NCBI RefSeq assembly: GCF_947487515.1 | Contig: NZ_CANKWO010000002.1 | Location: 496,001-560,000 of the forward strand | Reading direction: 5' to 3' | Length of the DNA: 64,000 bases | From: an uncultured Litoreibacter sp. | Lineage (GTDB): Bacteria > Pseudomonadota > Alphaproteobacteria > Rhodobacterales > Rhodobacteraceae | Shown here: piece by piece, positions 44,785 through 54,655 of the stretch | Position numbering within the stretch: the stretch's first letter is position 1 | Layout: each line of letters begins with the position of its first letter | Notes under the pieces: generated by a model | The model's database searches: none | Seen by the model: only the letters and a program-made list of their open reading frames with translations | Told to the model about the DNA's origin: nothing | Made by a program: the position numbers and the translations under genes

Positions 44785-47028
44785 CTACGTCCGCTTGCGC
44801 TTCAACTTCTTCTTCAGCTTGGCCCCTTTGGCCTTATACTTGCCGGTCTTGCGCCCCTTGGGTGGCCCCTTGCGACCGCGTCCGCCCGTTTGTGGCAAGG
44901 GTTTCCCGTTCAGCTCCAGCAATTCCAGCACCAATCCGCCGGTCACCGGCGTCGCCTCGGCAAGCCGCGCAAGAACCCGCGCGCCAAGGCCAATGACCAC
45001 ACCGGATTTCTCTCCGCGCAGGGTTTGCGCATCGCGGTCATACTCGAAATATTCGCGGCCCAACGTGCCGATTGGAATCAATCCGTCAGCACCGGATTCA
45101 TCCAGCTTCACAAACATCCCGAACTTGGCGATCCCGCTGACGCGGCCCTCCATTTCGGTGCCAACCCGATCTGCCAGATAGGCCGCCAGATAGCGGTCGG
45201 TGGTATCGCGCTCCGCCACCATCGAGCGGCGCTCGGTGGTGGAAATATGCTCGCCCGTGGATTTCAGATCATCATCGACCAAACCATCGTCGCCAAACTG
45301 ATGCGCCGAAATCAGCGCGCGGTGCACGATCAAATCCGCATAGCGCCGAATGGGCGAGGTGAAATGCGCATAGTCGCGCAACGCCAGACCAAAATGGCCG
45401 AAATTCTGCGGGCCATAGTAGGCTTGTGTCATGGATCGCAACGCCGAGATGTTGATCAGCTCTGCCTGATCCGTCCCTGCTGCCTGTTCCAACAACCGGT
45501 TCAGGTGCCGCGTTTGCAAGACTTGCCCTTTGGCCAAAGTCAGCCCGCTGGCTTGCACAACTTCGCGCAGGTTATCCAACTTCTCGGGGGAAGGTTCCTC
45601 GTGCACGCGGTACAAAAGCGGCGTGTTGCGGGCCTTCAACTCCTCGGCAGCGCAGACATTCGCCAACACCATGAATTCTTCGATCAACTTGTGGGCATCC
45701 AGCCGATCACGAAACGCCACAGACGTCACTTTGCCCGCGTCATCCATCATGATCTTGCGTTCGGGCAGGTCCAGCTCCAGCGGTTGACGACGCTCACGGG
45801 CGGCTTTCAGCGCCTCATAGGCGTCGAACAGTGGTGCGATCACATCCTTCATCAAAGGGGCAACCTTGTCGTTCGGTTTGCCGTCTTGGCCTTCTTGAAC
45901 TTCTTCGTAGTTCAGCGCCGCAGGGGACCGCATCAATCCGCGTGTAAACCGGTGCGAAATCTTCGCGCCATCGGCATCCAGCACCATGCGCACGGCCATG
46001 CACGGGCGTTCGACCCCTTCGTGAAGCGAGCACAGGTCACCCGATAGCGCATCGGGCAACATCGGCACCACACGGTCAGGGAAATAGGTCGAGTTCCCGC
46101 GCTTGCGGGCTTCGACATCCAGCTTCGATCCAGGCTGCACATAATGCGCCACATCGGCAATCGCCACCCAAACCACATGCCCGCCTTTGTTGGCCGGATC
46201 ATCATCCGCATGGGCGTAGCAGGCGTCATCATGGTCGCGCGCATCGCTGGGATCAATCGTCACCAACGGCAAGTCGCGCAAGTCTTCGCGTTTGCCCAGC
46301 TCCACGGGCTTTGCAGCCTCGGCTTCGGCGACAACGTCGTCAGGAAACGCGTCAGGGATGCCGTGCTGATGAATGGCAATCAGCGACACTGCACGCGGGC
46401 CGTTTGGGTCCCCCAAACGCGCAATGATTCTGGCCGAGGGCAGCCCCATTCGCGACCGTGGCCCCGTCTGTTCCGCCTCGACCAATTCGCCGTCTTTCGC
46501 GCCGGATACGGCCCCCGCAGGCACCCGCCATTCCTTGCCTTCGCCCTTGTCGATAGGCGTCACTCGGCCGCCCTCGGCGCCACTTCGGAAAATGCCCAAA
46601 ATTCGGTCAGGGCTTCCCGCGATCCGGCGGATCAGGCGGGCTTCATAGGCGTAGTCCTCGCCGGTAACTTTGGTGAGTCGGCAGAGGACGCGCTCGCCCT
46701 CGGCCAAACCCACGTCACCCTTCTTGGCAATGAACAAAACGCGCGGCGGGGTGTCGCCCGCCTCAACCGGTTCCAAAAACAAATCCCCATCCGCGTCCGG
46801 CGCCAGAACACGGCACACGGATACCGGCGGCAAAGACCCATCCTCGCGGGAAGTCTTGCGACGCTTTTCCAGATGCCCTTCACCCTGCAGTTCCTTGAGC
46901 ATCCGCTTCAAGTCAATCCGCGCAGCGCCTTTGATCCCGAAGGCTTTGGCGATGTCACGCTTGTTGGTTTTGGTCGGGTTATCCTGAATGAATGTCAGAA
47001 TGTCGGCTTTGGTGGGAAGGTTTTTCAT
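44785..47028 (-). CDS. rnr: Ribonuclease R
   Basis: VTIDPSDARDHDDACYA; HFTSPIRRYADLIVHRALI; S1 domain; Lys-rich C-terminus. Confidence 0.96.
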   Translation of the reverse strand: MKNLPTKADILTFIQDNPTKTNKRDIAKAFGIKGAARIDLKRMLKELQGEGHLEKRRKTSREDGSLPPVSVCRVLAPDADGDLFLEPVEAGDTPPRVLFIAKKGDVGLAEGERVLCRLTKVTGEDYAYEARLIRRIAGSPDRILGIFRSGAEGGRVTPIDKGEGKEWRVPAGAVSGAKDGELVEAEQTGPRSRMGLPSARIIARLGDPNGPRAVSLIAIHQHGIPDAFPDDVVAEAEAAKPVELGKREDLRDLPLVTIDPSDARDHDDACYAHADDDPANKGGHVVWVAIADVAHYVQPGSKLDVEARKRGNSTYFPDRVVPMLPDALSGDLCSLHEGVERPCMAVRMVLDADGAKISHRFTRGLMRSPAALNYEEVQEGQDGKPNDKVAPLMKDVIAPLFDAYEALKAARERRQPLELDLPERKIMMDDAGKVTSVAFRDRLDAHKLIEEFMVLANVCAAEELKARNTPLLYRVHEEPSPEKLDNLREVVQASGLTLAKGQVLQTRHLNRLLEQAAGTDQAELINISALRSMTQAYYGPQNFGHFGLALRDYAHFTSPIRRYADLIVHRALISAHQFGDDGLVDDDLKSTGEHISTTERRSMVAERDTTDRYLAAYLADRVGTEMEGRVSGIAKFGMFVKLDESGADGLIPIGTLGREYFEYDRDAQTLRGEKSGVVIGLGARVLARLAEATPVTGGLVLELLELNGKPLPQTGGRGRKGPPKGRKTGKYKAKGAKLKKKLKRKRT

Positions 47029-47072
47029 GCCCCCCGCCTAGCACGCCCTGCGCGCGGCGTCATGGGTTCGTT

Positions 47073-47645
47073 TTAGCTGGGTAAATCCGCAACTGTATCC
47101 ACGTCACGCAGCTCGGCAATATATCCCACACGCGCATCCCCAAGGGAGGCGACGCTATCCGCCAAGGCATGTTCAGTTGACCAGCGCACATGTCGGAACA
47201 GGCCAGCGTGGCGACGCATCCGTTTCAAGCCAACCAACCAATAACCACCGTCCGGAGCAGGCCCAAACACCGCTTCACTGCGCCCCAATTCGGCAAAGGC
47301 CTCGGCAATACGCGGGCGGGTCACGTCAGGAATATCCGCGCCTATAATGCACACCGGTCCATCCGGCATGGCCTCAAAGGCGGCCCCCATCCGGTCCCCC
47401 AGATCGCCCTTCCCCTGCGCCCAGCGCGGTAGATCAACAGGCCATACCCGAGAGGTCAAACCTTCCGCATCCGGCGACACGGCCAGCACCAAATCCCAGC
47501 GCGGATCGCGCAGCCGCCGCAAAAGCGCGCGCGTTTGATGCCGGAACCACCACGCAGCCCCGACCAACCCCAGATCCCGCCCCAGCCGCGTTTTAACACG
47601 ACCTGGATGCGGCTCTTTCACCATGACAACCAGAGTTTTACGCAA
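47073..47645 (-). CDS. TIGR04282/DUF2064 family glycosyltransferase
   Basis: [54 protein letters not shown]. Confidence 0.85.
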
Positions 47646-48786
47646 AGTAGTCCTGTAGAATTCGTGTGTAGATGTTTTTCAACTGATGCACTTGCTCCAC
47701 CATCACGCGCTCGTCCACTTGATGCATGGTTTTGCCCACAAGGCCAAACTCCACCACGGGGCAGTGGTTCTTCACAAACCGCGCGTCCGAGGTCCCGCCC
47801 GAGGTCGACATCTCCGGCACAACGCCCGTCTCGGCCTCAACGCTGGCTGCAACCAAGGCCGACAATTCACCCGGTGGCGTCACGAAGCTTTCGCCCGACA
47901 CTTGGGTGACCATTTCAACCGTCGCCCCGCTCTCGGTGGCGATTTTGTCCGCTTCCCCGCGCAGCCACGCAATCAAGCTGTCCGAGGTGTGGTCGTCATT
48001 GAACCGGATGTTCACCGTCGCTTTGCATTCCGCTGGGATCACGTTGTTTGCGCCATTGCCCGTATCAATGGTGACCACCGCCAAGGTCGAGGCGTCGAAG
48101 TGGTCCGTGCCTTCGTCCAACACATGGCTGGCCAAGCGATCCACCAGCCGCGCCATCACCGGCACGGGGTTTAACGCGCGGTGTGGGTAGGCCGCGTGGC
48201 CTTGCACGCCCTTGACGGTGAAATAGGCGGTCATCGATCCGCGGCGGCCAATTTTCATCATCTCCCCCATCTCGTTGGGGCAGGTCGGCTCGCCCACAAG
48301 GCAGGCGGTCATCGCCTCGCCCTGCGCGTCCATCCAGTCCAAAAGCGCCACAGTGCCATCAATCGCCACACCTTCCTCGTCGCCCGTGATCGCCATGATC
48401 ACTGCGCCATCAGGCGGGGTGTTGGTCACAAAATCCACGGCGGCGGCGGCAAAGGCGGCCACGCCGGATTTCATATCCGTCGAGCCACGACCATAGAGGT
48501 AGCCATCCTTTATCTCGGCCCCGAAGGGGTCCACGCTCCATGCGGCCGCGTCGCCCACAGGCACCACATCCGTGTGGCCATTGAAGCCGAAACTGCGGCC
48601 ATGCCCCTTGTCGCCCCAACGGGCATATAGGTTGGAAACCTCGCCACGATCCACGCGGGTGCAGTCAAATCCGGCGGCCCCGAGCAGCTCTGCCAAAATC
48701 GTAAGCGCCCCTCCCTCTACAGGCGTAACAGAGGCGCAGCGCACCAGTTTTGCCGTCAGGTCAACAGGATCAATGGGTTTGGTCAT
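47638..48786 (-). CDS. dapE: Succinyl-diaminopimelate desuccinylase
   Basis: [83 protein letters not shown]. Confidence 0.96.
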
Positions 48787-48931
48787 GGTGCGCTCCAATA
48801 CTGTGTTGGTCACCTTCTACCCCGCCGCCTAGGTGAGGCGCAATCGCAACAGGCCATTTGAAAACGTGGCTAAATGCCGGTGAAAACAAGGCAAAACCCA
48901 AAAATACCTTCCCCCGAAGTTAGGTCCCACG

Positions 48932-48946
48932 TTAACAATTAGTTAA
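48932..48946. promoter_or_regulatory. Putative full CtrA-binding box (TTAA-N7-TTAA)
   Basis: gTTAACAATTAGTTAAc, about 140 bp upstream of the Hint gene start at 49086. Confidence 0.55.
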
Positions 48947-49085
48947 CAATATTAAGCCCGAGGCAGGGTACGCGGTCCGCAAAAGGGCCGCTCGAGCGTT
49001 TTGATTACCGAGTTGCGACTATTTTGAGGGAACCGGCTTCCCTCCTGTGTATACGCTTGCCTGATCTTCGGGAACGGAGGCAGTA

Positions 49086-50666
49086 ATGGTTGCAGCATCG
49101 GAACTTCCGATCGATGAAAGTGCGTCTGCGGTGCAGATGGCCAATGAGATTTTCGGCAACGGGGCAACCGTGGTCGGCGCATCCTATTCTGGATGGTCGC
49201 AATCGTCTGGCATCTACACCAACGGTGACAGCGTAGCTCCGGGGGCAACCCCAAGTGACTCTGGCGTCATTTTGTCCACGGGGCGCGCATCCCATTTTAC
49301 CAACTCAAACGGGCAATCGAACCAGAACACCAACGCTTCTACAAATACACCCGGTATAAACAATGACGCGCAGTTCAACGCTTTGGCGGGTGCTAGAACC
49401 TATGACGCCTCAATCCTAAGCGTTGACTTCATCCCTGATGGCGACACCTTGTCGTTGCAGTTCATCTATTCCTCCGAGGAATATCCCGAGTTCGTGAACT
49501 CCATCTACAATGACCTCGTGGGGGTCTGGGTCAATGGTGCACCTGTGTCCTTGGCGGTAGGGGATGGCGACTCTGACATCGGCAACGTCAATGCCACCAA
49601 CAACGTCAACCTGTACCAAGACAACACAACCGACGACTACAACACGGAAATGGACGGCTTTACGGTCACCTTGACCTTAACGCTAAACGTGAACCCGGGT
49701 GTGGTGAATTCCATTCGCATCGGGATCGCAGATGTGGCCGATAGCAACTACGATAGTAATTTGCTAATTGCCGGCGGCTCGATCCAAAGCGACGTCTTGG
49801 CCTATGACGATGCCTATGATGTGGTGCAAAACGGCACGCCAACGCTCGATGTCCTTGCCAATGACGTTGAGGGCAGCGGCGGCACGCTGACGATCACACA
49901 TATTAACGGGCAGTCGGTCACGGTCGGCAGCACCGTCACCTTGGCCACCGGCGCGCAGGTGACCCTGAACGCGGATGGCACATTCGGGTATCAAAACGAC
50001 CTCGACGTCGAAGAAATCAGTTTCACCTACACCGCCGAAAACGCCGCTGGTGTGTCCGATACGGCCTTTGTCACCGTCAACACGATCCCTTGCTTTGTGG
50101 CAGGCACCATGGTTCAGACGCCTTCTGGGCCAAGACAGGTGCAACTTTTGGAACCTGGCGATCTGGTCATGACCAAAGACGATGGCGCCCAGCCGGTTCG
50201 CTGGATCGGGTCACGCAAGGTCGAGGCAACCGGCACCTTGGCCCCGATCCGGATTGAGGCAGGCGCATTCGGGGATCACGACACCCTGTCCGTGTCACCA
50301 CAACACCGCGTGCTCATTTCCGACGAAATGGCCGAGATCCTCTTCGGGTCGGAAGAAGTGTTGGTTGCAGCCAAGGACTTGGTAAATGACCAAACCGTGC
50401 GCCGCGATACTTCGCAGCCCGAGGTCACCTATGTTCACATCCTCTTTGATAAACATCAGGTGGTGTTCTCGGAACGGCTGGCGACCGAAAGCTTCCTTCC
50501 CGGTCCGCAATCCCTGCAAAGCTTCGATCATGAGGTTATTCACGAAATCTGCACTATTTTCCCCGAGATTGATCCCATGACCGGATATGGATATGGCACA
50601 GCAGCACGCACGGAACTCAAGGGCTATGAGGCCCAACTTCTGATGTCCCAAGGCTATGCGGCTTAG
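49086..50666 (+). CDS. Choice-of-anchor L domain and Hint domain-containing protein
   Basis: N-terminal choice-of-anchor L-like (QFIYSSEEYPEFVNSIYNDLVGVWVNG), cadherin-like repeat (LDVLANDVEGSGGTLTI), C-terminal Hint (CFVAGTMVQTPSGPRQVQLLEPGDLVMT...SPQHRVLI). Confidence 0.88.
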   Translation: MVAASELPIDESASAVQMANEIFGNGATVVGASYSGWSQSSGIYTNGDSVAPGATPSDSGVILSTGRASHFTNSNGQSNQNTNASTNTPGINNDAQFNALAGARTYDASILSVDFIPDGDTLSLQFIYSSEEYPEFVNSIYNDLVGVWVNGAPVSLAVGDGDSDIGNVNATNNVNLYQDNTTDDYNTEMDGFTVTLTLTLNVNPGVVNSIRIGIADVADSNYDSNLLIAGGSIQSDVLAYDDAYDVVQNGTPTLDVLANDVEGSGGTLTITHINGQSVTVGSTVTLATGAQVTLNADGTFGYQNDLDVEEISFTYTAENAAGVSDTAFVTVNTIPCFVAGTMVQTPSGPRQVQLLEPGDLVMTKDDGAQPVRWIGSRKVEATGTLAPIRIEAGAFGDHDTLSVSPQHRVLISDEMAEILFGSEEVLVAAKDLVNDQTVRRDTSQPEVTYVHILFDKHQVVFSERLATESFLPGPQSLQSFDHEVIHEICTIFPEIDPMTGYGYGTAARTELKGYEAQLLMSQGYAA

Positions 50667-50801
50667 AATTACCCCCAAATATGGCAACAATGCCATGGTT
50701 ATTCCTCGGAATGATCACGGACCTTCCATGCTTTCGGCGTGGAGTGCCCGTACTCCTAGAGCATCCAAAGACCAGTTTGGTTGTGTGTGGGGTAATAGGT
50801 A

Positions 50802-51449
50802 ATGAAACATATCAGCTTTGAAATAGGTGGGCAGACGGCTCTGTTGGGCCAAGACGAAATGTCCGAAACGATCGCGCTGCAGGCGAATGGCCGCGACGCA
50901 TATGACGCAGGTGTCAAAACCGCGTTCTCTAACATCAATGAAGTCCCTCAGGCGCCGGCGAATACCGGTATGATGGCAAGCACGCGTATCACAACTCCTG
51001 ACGGGGTGCGCCGCATTGACGAGCTTTCGATTGGGGACGTGGTCATGGACGCGCAGGGCCGTCAGGCGCAGGTCCGCCATGTTCTGAGCACGAATGCACC
51101 GCGCAATTCCTTCCTTATCCGCGCGCCTTACTTCGGGCTGACCCATGATGTGGTCTTCGCGCCAGATCAAAAAATCGTCGTCACTTCAGATATCGCCGAA
51201 TATCTGTTCGGTGAGGAAACTGTCATCGTTCCCGTGTGGGCTTTGAACGATGGTCGCAAAGTGGGTCACTATGAAACGCGCTCTTCCGACCGGATGTATC
51301 AATTGCAACTCGACACGCCTGAAGCTGTCGCAGTGGGGCGATGCGCCGTATCCGCACTCTACAAAGACGGGGCGACACAGGGCCGTGTTCTGAGCGTTGA
51401 AGAAGCGCGCTGCTTTGCCGGCGAATACCGCACCGGTTTCGCGAACTAG
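50802..51449 (+). CDS. Hint-domain-like protein with degenerate catalytic residues
   Basis: MASTRITTPDGVRRIDELSIGDVVMDAQGR...TNAPRNSFLIRAPYFGLTHDVVFAPDQKIVVTSDIAEYLFGEETVIVPVWAL, alignable to the Hint core of the upstream gene. Confidence 0.8.
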   Translation: MKHISFEIGGQTALLGQDEMSETIALQANGRDAYDAGVKTAFSNINEVPQAPANTGMMASTRITTPDGVRRIDELSIGDVVMDAQGRQAQVRHVLSTNAPRNSFLIRAPYFGLTHDVVFAPDQKIVVTSDIAEYLFGEETVIVPVWALNDGRKVGHYETRSSDRMYQLQLDTPEAVAVGRCAVSALYKDGATQGRVLSVEEARCFAGEYRTGFAN

Positions 51450-51778
51450 TCGTCACCTTCATAAAATGCGGTGGTTTGCGCCACTACGACCGAATTCTCG
51501 TCCAACGCGCGTTGCATCAAGGCGCGTTCCTCATCTTCGATGTCATGACCTTCGGCAATGCGGTCATTGAGAGACCCGTAGCCCGTCACATCCAAAGGTG
51601 CCAATCCCGCTTGCTTCATCAGCGCAACTGTTTCACGCACCGCCTCTGCTTCATCCACACCACTCGCATAGCACATCAGCGCTGCACCCGATGCGTGCTC
51701 GGGGAGCCCGTCATCCTCTTTGCGGCCCACTTCAATGAGCAGCGTATACACTTGATGTTTCGACTTTTCCTTGACCAC
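51446..51778 (-). CDS. Small conserved-looking protein of unknown function
   Basis: 110 aa acidic ORF convergent with the Hint gene (4-bp overlap). Confidence 0.65.
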   Translation of the reverse strand: MVKEKSKHQVYTLLIEVGRKEDDGLPEHASGAALMCYASGVDEAEAVRETVALMKQAGLAPLDVTGYGSLNDRIAEGHDIEDEERALMQRALDENSVVVAQTTAFYEGDD

Positions 51779-51894
51779 AACATGCCTCTTTTTCTGTGCG
51801 CCCTCGGTCTCTCAATCAAGGTAAGGAGTCAAGCCACTTGCAATCATACGTGATGCTGGTGCATCTAATTCGGTATCTTCAAGAAAGCTCGATA

Positions 51895-52941
51895 ATGCGC
51901 GCACTTCTAACCGTTCTGCTTGTTCTTCTGCCTTTCGCCACTTGGGCACAAGACCCTGTAAAAATCGCAACAGTAAGCCGAGCGCCGTTTTCCTTTGTGG
52001 ATAATGGCCAAGCAACCGGTTTTTCGATGGAGCTGTGGGACATGGTCGCCGCTGATCTCGGGATTGATTACGAGATTGTACGCACGGATAGCTTTTCCGG
52101 AATGCTCGACATGTTGACCAACGGGACAGCCGATGGTGCAATTTCCAACATTTCAGTCACCGCCGAGCGCGAAGTGCGCATGGATTTCACCCAGCCCATA
52201 TTCGACAGCGGCTTGCAGATCATGATCCACGACAGCAACAACAGCACCTCCCTATGGGCGGCACTTGTGACGCGCGACATTGGATTTGCGGTCCTCGCGG
52301 CGGCCGCCCTGCTTTTCGGTGGCGGCATGTTGATGTGGGTGTTTGAACGCGGTCGGTCCGAATACTTCAGCCGCCCCGCACGCGAGGTCATGTTCCCCGC
52401 CTTTTGGTGGGCATTGAACCTTGTGGTCAACGGCGGCTTCGAGGAACGCATGCCCAACTCACGCCCCGGACGCTTTTTCGCGGTGCTGCTTGTGGTGTGC
52501 TCTTTGTTCTTGGTGTCGGTGTTTGTGGCTAAAATCACCGCTGCGATGACTGTGAACGCGCTGCAAAACAGCATCGAAAACTTGTCTGACCTCGAAGGAA
52601 AGAAAGTTGGAACCATTGCGGGATCAACCGCCAGCACCTTTCTGTCGGACCGCGAAGTATTGCATTCCGGCTATGAAACTCTGGAAGGAATCTTGGCTGA
52701 CTTCGAAGACGGCGTTTTGGACGCGGTGGTTTTCGACAAACCCATTTTGGCCTATTACATTGCGCATGACGGGCGCGGAAAAGCCCATCTTATCGACCGC
52801 ACGTTCAAGCCGGAAAACTACGCGATGGCCCTGCCCACCGGCAGCCCCTTGCGCGAGCAAATCGACCAGAGCCTTCTGAAACTGCGCGAAAACGGTGCCT
52901 ATGACCGCCTTCGCGCAGAATGGTTCGGTTCAACTCGTTAG
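51895..52941 (+). CDS. Ionotropic glutamate receptor (GluR0)-like protein: SBP_bac_3 with inserted pore module
   Basis: Signal peptide; S1 [37 protein letters not shown]1; pore [27 protein letters not shown]2; S2 [18 protein letters not shown]. Confidence 0.85.
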
Positions 52942-53765
52942 TCGCGCAGCAACTCGTTGATACCTGTTTTGGAGCGTGTGCGCTCGTCGACGCGCTTCAC
53001 GATCACCGCGCAATACAGGTTCACGCCGTTCTTGGAAGGCATGGAGCCCGCAACAACCACCGAGTAAGGCGGCACTTCGCCGTACATCACTTCGCCGGTT
53101 TCGCGGTCAACGATCTTGGTCGACTGGCCAATAAATACGCCCATGCCCAAAACCGCGCCCTCGCGTACGATACAGCCCTCAACCACTTCTGAGCGCGCCC
53201 CGATAAAGCAGTTGTCTTCGATGATGGTTGGGCCCGCTTGCATCGGCTCCAAAACGCCACCAATGCCGACGCCGCCAGAAAGATGCACGTTTTTGCCGAT
53301 TTGGGCGCAAGACCCGACGGTGGCCCATGTGTCGACCATAGTGCCTTCATCCACATGCGCACCAAGGTTCACAAAGGACGGCATCAACACCACACCCGGC
53401 GCAATATAGGCAGACTTGCGCACGACACAGTTTGGCACGGCACGAAAGCCTGCGGCCTTCCATTCTGCATCGCCCCAACCTTTGAACTTGCTGTCGACCT
53501 TATCCCACCAGCCAGCGCCTTGTGGGCCGCCTTCGTGTTGCTCCATGTCTTTGATGCGGAATCCCAACAGAACGGCCTTCTTCGCCCATTGGTTCACATG
53601 CCACGAACCGTCGTCTTGCTTCTCGGCCACGCGCAGTTTGCCGCTGTCTAAGGCATTCAGCGTGTCTTCAATGGCATCACGTGTTTCCCCTGTTGTGGAA
53701 GGCGTAATTGTATCACGCGCCTCCCAGGCGGCCTCGATAGCAGTCTCTAGCTGAGCGTTAGACAT
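52938..53765 (-). CDS. dapD: 2,3,4,5-tetrahydropyridine-2,6-dicarboxylate N-succinyltransferase
   Basis: [20 protein letters not shown]; hexapeptide repeats [40 protein letters not shown]. Confidence 0.97.
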
Positions 53766-53818
53766 GTGGGTTTCCTCAATCGTGTCTGGTTTCAATGGTT
53801 GATCGCCTATAAACCGAA

Positions 53819-54655
53819 ATGACGCATACGCGCAATGAAGAGGCAGAGAATATGAAAGACGACAACCGCAAGCACCCAATGCGCCATTCCCGTCAGGATA
53901 TGGAAGAGGTCAAGCAAATCCCCGACACGCCGCAAACGCGGTCCCCTGCCTATGAGTTGGCCTTCACGGACAATGACTTCATGTGCCGCGACGAATTGCG
54001 TCCCGTGCGCTTGCAGTTGGAACTGCTGAAGCCACAGATGATGATGGATGAGGCCGGCATCGAATCAACCATCGTTTTGTTCGGTGGCGCGCGCATCCCA
54101 GAGCCCGCAAAAAAGGACACCGCCCGCACCCAGACGCTGTCGGACTTGTCCAAATACTACGAAGAAGCCCGCCGTTTTGCCCAGATTATGACCGAACGCT
54201 CTGACGGCAAGAACAACGTCATTTGCACCGGTGGCGGACCAGGCGTCATGGAGGCCGGAAACCGCGGCGCAATTGATGCTGGCGGACGCTCCATCGGGCT
54301 AAACATTGTGCTGCCTCACGAGCAGGCCCCGAACGAATATGTCTCGCCGGAGTTGTGTTTCAACTTCCACTATTTCGCCATCCGCAAGATGCACTTCTTG
54401 ATGCGCGCCAGCGCCGTCACGGTCTTCCCAGGCGGGTTCGGCACGTTGGATGAAACCTTCGAGGCGCTCACCTTGATCCAAACAGGCCGGATGAAACGCG
54501 TTCCATTCGTGCTGTTTGGAGAGAAATTCTGGCGGTCGATCATCAATTGGGAGGCCCTGTCAGACGCGGGCACAATTGCTGCCGAAGATTTGGATCTGTT
54601 CCACTTTGTCGAAACAGCCGAAGAAGCCATCGCGATCATCGACGCCCACCAATAG
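53819..54655 (+). CDS. TIGR00730/LOG family protein
   Basis: [64 protein letters not shown]...[13 protein letters not shown]. Confidence 0.93.

Follow-up and report, generated by a model that had tools for sequence, protein, structure and literature searches.

A conserved putative pseudo-Hint lineage encoded behind an active-type Hint gene in Rhodobacteraceae

Why should a protein that has lost the catalytic residues of a self-acting domain be encoded directly behind one that has kept them all? The question is raised by two neighbouring genes in a 64,000-nucleotide stretch of a Litoreibacter genome (hereafter the window), which were initially annotated as possibly an active autoprocessing surface protein with a pseudo-Hint partner (a chaperone, inhibitor, or decoy) or, alternatively, as a decaying duplication. 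Hint domains are single-turnover and self-acting; a conserved dead relative beside a live Hint means that Hint action may be under another protein's control. The Hint_2 type is abundant in marine Rhodobacteraceae, where counts per genome reach 18 or more, and it is one of the functions in which fast-growing bloom bacteria are enriched (PMC12487129). We found no account in the open literature of what Hint_2 proteins do, and the gene pair is a compact two-gene system with which to probe their function.

Catalytic positions of the two proteins

The upstream gene encodes a member of the choice-of-anchor-L family (NF038133, 167.8 bits vs. a cut-off of 27), the Hint_2 domain of which has the residues expected of an autocatalytic Hint: Cys336 at position 1 (Cys1), His407 in block B (SPQHR), and His457 in block F (HQVV). 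The downstream protein is also recognized by the Hint_2 profile (56.2 bits, residues 58–186), so that both window proteins lie above the PF13403 gathering score of 28.4 bits, and the two align with each other at 32% identity over the Hint part (BLASTP, E = 3e-11). The alignment pairs Cys336 with Gly56 and His407 with Gln123, in agreement with the Cys-to-Gly and His-to-Gln replacements of the initial annotation, and the residues at the catalytic positions thus bear out its pairing of an intact Hint protein with a pseudo-Hint. A third loss, absent from that annotation, is found in block F, where His457 lies opposite Pro173. The downstream protein therefore has neither Cys/Ser/Thr at position 1 nor the block-B histidine of an autocatalytic Hint, and no substitute catalytic residue was seen elsewhere in it, a point on which the initial annotation had made its reading depend.

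Table 1. Features of the gene pair, with positions numbered along the window
Feature	Position	Strand	Basis or remark
Upstream protein, 526 aa (choice-of-anchor-L + Big_9 + Hint_2 + C-terminal tail)	49086..50666	+	
Choice-of-anchor-L domain, residues 17–233	49134..49784	+	NF038133, E 2.3e-49
Big_9 bacterial Ig-like domain, residues 239–332	49800..50081	+	PF17963, E 3.8e-8
Active-type Hint_2 domain, residues 335–473	50088..50504	+	PF13403, 175.5 bits
Catalytic residues of upstream Hint_2: Cys336; block-B His407; block-F His457	50091; 50304; 50454		
EAxxL-containing C-terminal tail; full-length partners have a homologous tail	50505..50663	+	hhalign
Conserved intergenic element (GGCAACAATGCC..., palindrome ATTCCTCGGAAT), small hairpin	50667..50720	+	Alignment of six Litoreibacter-type genomes
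Downstream protein, 215 aa (pseudo-Hint; partner family, short Litoreibacter form)	50802..51449	+	
Gly56 at the Hint Cys1 position	50967..50969	+	
Clade-specific motif RAPYFGLxxD, residues 107–116	51120..51149	+	
Gln123 at the block-B His position (APDQK)	51168..51170	+	Gln in 66/92 partners, 6/6 Litoreibacter forms
Clade-specific motif EYLFGEE, residues 133–139	51198..51218	+	
Pro173 at the block-F His position	51318..51320	+	

The closest relatives of the downstream protein are found in five Litoreibacter species (69–77% identity), and Gly56 and Gln123 are invariant in these five orthologues. AlphaFold models built from a shallow alignment of the window and Litoreibacter sequences had a pLDDT of 37.0 for the downstream and 33.5 for the upstream protein, too low for a fold to be read from them. 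Profile comparison favours a Hint fold for the downstream protein: its clade matches the active Hint at 3e-39 in hhalign and the gp41-1 intein at 4e-4. A crude hydropathy test detected no N-terminal hydrophobic signal in either window protein.

In other genera the downstream homologues, here called partners, are typically larger: full-length partners have about 360 residues, composed of an N-terminal domain, the pseudo-Hint, and a tail whose homologue is found in the active proteins; the hhalign alignment of active proteins to full-length partners extends through it. The EAxxL motif of this tail is found in 51 of the 59 upstream proteins and 58 of the 92 partners. The N-terminal domain, which is beta-rich and missing from the window protein, has no match in Pfam or NCBIfam; its one profile match, a weak one (E 0.018), is to the lectin-like domain of a sialidase structure, which we take to be CBM40.

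The difference between the two genes holds across the family. When 59 upstream copies and 92 downstream ones, all from other genera, are aligned, Cys1, the block-B histidine, and the block-F histidine are each kept in 58/59 upstream copies, while only 5/92 downstream copies have Cys1 (Gly 35, Thr 23, Ser 13, Trp 10, Ala 5, and Leu 1 in the rest) and only 12/92 the block-B histidine. Both residues together are present in just two downstream copies, L145 (genome G016) and L154 (genome G046), which are nested within the dead clade; these two could be active themselves, or could have reacquired Hint sequence from an active copy. On the tree, at least 29 replacements of the residue at the Cys1 position fall within the downstream clade, which shows that this position is free and the rest of the domain is not.

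Could some of these proteins still be catalytic, with another nucleophile and a different helper residue? The 36 of 92 partners with Ser or Thr at position 1 would be the candidates, since block A of inteins may hold Cys, Ser, or Thr (PMC7765530), as would the two copies that keep both residues. However, Gly, Trp, or Ala occupies the position in 50/92 partners, the window protein among them, the block-B histidine is gone from most, and the idea is inapplicable to Gly56; we consider it very improbable.

Age of the clade and constancy of its locus

In a quick tree the downstream copies, including the window protein, form a single clade (SH-aLRT 99), separate from all active copies and from the four other degenerate Hint domains of the window genome. 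Six Litoreibacter forms, compared pairwise, give dN/dS values of about 0.04–0.2, with some of the dS values saturated. Around block B the clade has residues of its own, RAPYFGLxxD, the glutamine, and EYLFG, which the short Litoreibacter forms retain despite the loss of the N-terminal domain; RAPYFGLxxD is conserved in the partners and in all Litoreibacter forms and is mostly absent from active copies.

A single clade at a fixed locus, with its own motifs and a low dN/dS, points to an old pseudo-Hint family and not to decay. The alternative put forward at first, that the upstream gene was duplicated and the copy behind it is decaying, does account for the lost catalytic residues, and the Litoreibacter form is indeed shortened, on a long stem branch of 1.38. 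But a separate clade occurring in about half of the sampled genera, reading frames open almost throughout, dN/dS well below 1, and conserved clade-specific motifs all stand against it, and we regard it as practically ruled out. A phage origin was rejected, with no match among 50,697 phage records, and so was a plasmid origin, the plasmid matches being only distant Hint_2 proteins with one record above 80% coverage, at 29% identity.

The family sample comprised 199 genomes, nearly one per genus; the partner is present in 94 of them, from which 92 homologues were recovered. Outside the family, about 237 genomes of the class were all without it. An active Hint reading frame lies directly upstream on the same strand, at 0–218 nt, in 59 of the 92 cases, and in 14 the two genes share an ATGA overlap. 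Domain tables give much the same picture, with a choice-of-anchor-L gene upstream at 60 of 95 loci and a further one downstream at 11, and the pairing thus recurs in other genomes as initially proposed. The triple order of active choice-of-anchor-L/Hint, pseudo-Hint, and second active choice-of-anchor-L/Hint is seen in genomes G073, G038, G101, G077, G194, G124, G113, and G105.

Close inspection shows the Hint pair flanked, in most of the genomes so examined, by the lysine pathway genes dapE and dapD (window positions 44785–54655), and the order in the genomes examined more widely is rnr – dapE – [active Hint] – pseudo-Hint – dapD – LOG family. The brackets are needed because 33 of the 92 partners are alone at the locus, with no adjacent active Hint, which weakens the case for a strict one-to-one partnership. 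In Litoreibacter meonggei the active gene is reduced to its last codons (TLKGYEAQFLLSQGCAA; L021, 3780–3866) beside dapE, with the pseudo-Hint intact behind them. This deletion and the lone copies together indicate that the adjacent gene is not needed by the pseudo-Hint.

What does seem to be needed is the presence of Hint genes in the genome. The partner is absent from all 26 genomes free of Hint_2, all 94 partner genomes hold at least two further Hint_2 domains once the pair is subtracted, and the median number of other Hint_2 genes is 10 in partner genomes vs. 6 in the others, although the genomes compared are not independent of one another.

Between the two genes lies a strongly conserved element with a palindrome, present once in the window genome and kept in L. 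meonggei too. We ruled out the palindrome as a regulon site or shared operator because of this single copy. Terminator and promoter scans around the pair gave results no better than shuffled sequences.

The window protein is also not the only degenerate Hint in its genome. Among 19 Hint_2 domains, alignment places Cys at position 1 in 13 and Ser in one (L011), while five, including the downstream window protein, lack the cysteine (L015–L019). L015, L016, and L017 are short forms with Asn or Gly at the position, and L016 appears lineage-specific and close to active copies. L018 (1441–1944; G000:C1:433229–433732), of 173 residues, belongs to a second widespread family of single-domain pseudo-Hints (relatives L176–L194) of about 170 residues, with mostly Gly/Ala/Ser at Cys1, no block-B histidine, no passenger domain, and a motif RDWRA..LFG. 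Its locus is fixed across genera between tig and nnr-glnB-glnA, in most cases with no active Hint alongside. With two such families, catalytic loss followed by long conservation has seemingly occurred more than once, although the quick tree does not settle the deep branching of these short copies.

Proposed role of the pseudo-Hint

That a dead lineage is old and selectively maintained suggests, as far as sequences can tell, a non-catalytic helper or regulator in preference to a decaying duplicate. We tentatively propose, with confidence a little below even, that the pseudo-Hint acts as a binding partner of active Hint domains, whose processing or export it would control or assist. The upstream protein would leave the cell without a Sec signal, perhaps by a type I route, and its Hint would cleave or transfer the choice-of-anchor-L part at Cys336. 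The pseudo-Hint, itself presumably non-cleaving, would bind active Hints through the conserved face RAPYFGLxxD ... Q ... EYLFG, beginning with its neighbour and probably extending to others in the cell; binding would hold, time, or assist processing or export, much as the dead paralogue in the AdoMetDC system, the prozyme, regulates the live one.

Several of the observations above favour this regulatory reading: the placement of most partners, some of them overlapping, immediately behind an active Hint; the contrast in active sites between upstream and downstream copies; the single clade with its low dN/dS; the persistence of the partner motifs in the short Litoreibacter form; the absence of partners from Hint_2-free genomes and the larger number of other Hint_2 genes where they occur; and the clear homology of the clade to the active Hint. 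It is weakened by the lone partners and the loss of the active gene in L. meonggei, and also by the N-terminal domain of most partners, for which a pure Hint regulator would have no need.

Co-variation of the two proteins cuts both ways. Distances among full-length partners correlate with those among their upstream neighbours (rho 0.57, n = 39), and the correlation persists beyond that of linked dapE (partial rho 0.50; 0/2000 permutations); in this mirror-tree comparison the dapE control was often a partial fragment, linked inheritance can mimic co-evolution, and the full-length version was the second of the variants run. Restricting the comparison to the Hint parts leaves a weak signal (partial rho 0.17; 71/2000 permutations), which speaks against the regulatory reading, while the full-length result speaks for it. 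Taken together, co-variation backs a joint role, as supporting and not decisive evidence.

The N-terminal domain and the shared tail fit another explanation, in which pseudo-Hint and tail serve as no more than an export or anchoring module. The partner would then be secreted, as a lectin-like protein, by the same route as the active Hints but would not be cleaved, so that catalysis was free to be lost. The tail common to active and dead proteins, the weak lectin-like match, and the many different replacements of Cys1, as relaxed constraint predicts, would all follow. The Litoreibacter forms, however, have no passenger, the N-terminal domain being gone together with most of the tail pattern, and their pseudo-Hint is still under selection; the tig-glnB family likewise has no passenger domain, and the motifs gained around block B exceed what passive retention would leave. 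We therefore think this explanation unlikely, though it deserves serious attention.

Slightly less probable again, in our view, is that the pseudo-Hint fold was co-opted for a role unrelated to active Hints, such as binding of a protein or small molecule, with adjacency left over from the original duplication. The third of partners that stand alone, the loss of the active gene in L. meonggei, and the second pseudo-Hint family, mostly without a neighbouring active Hint, are what co-option would predict. A partner is never found in a genome free of Hint_2, though, and the ATGA overlaps and the co-variation with the neighbour argue for a joint role where both genes are present.

Extending the regulatory reading, at least two ancient dead-Hint families of the Rhodobacteraceae might serve as trans-acting regulators of many active Hint proteins, governing their autoprocessing or export; this is conceivable, and we hold it with less confidence than the proposal for the pair itself.

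Comparison with known systems

From its sequence pattern the downstream clade is, we believe, a pseudoenzyme lineage of the Hint fold: as in regulatory pseudoenzymes, the catalytic residues are lost with the rest conserved. Neither Pfam, NCBIfam, nor public annotation sets the clade apart, and active and dead proteins are alike named “Hint domain-containing protein”. Our search, confined to the open literature, turned up no paper describing conserved Hint proteins that are catalytically dead, nor any on a Hint-fold pseudoenzyme. To our knowledge, there is no earlier case of a regulatory pseudoenzyme of a self-cleaving domain, and dead Hints regulating active ones would, if the proposal is true, be the first.

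Both window proteins belong with the Hint_2 domains of Rhodobacterales (PF13403), the upstream one with all of the catalytic positions; the downstream clade differs in the absence of Cys1 and the block-B histidine and, in Litoreibacter, of the block-F histidine as well. Blocks A and B resemble those of BIL domains (types A and B) and inteins, and the profiles weakly match a solved BIL domain in addition to the gp41-1 intein. In contrast to type A BIL domains and inteins, the window proteins have no C-terminal His-Asn in the aligned region and no splicing context, and while BIL domains in the literature retain autocleavage (PMC7765530), the residues for it are missing from the downstream clade. 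With the Hog part of Hedgehog proteins the shared feature is the architecture, in which an N-terminal part of secreted type precedes a C-terminal Hint and a further C-terminal region comes last; the PF01079 score is, however, only 12.6 bits vs. a cut-off of 29.7. Finally, whereas activation of AdoMetDC by its prozyme is proven (PMC5201418) and regulation by the pseudo-Hint is our reading of the comparative data, the two systems are alike in that a dead paralogue is retained beside a live one.
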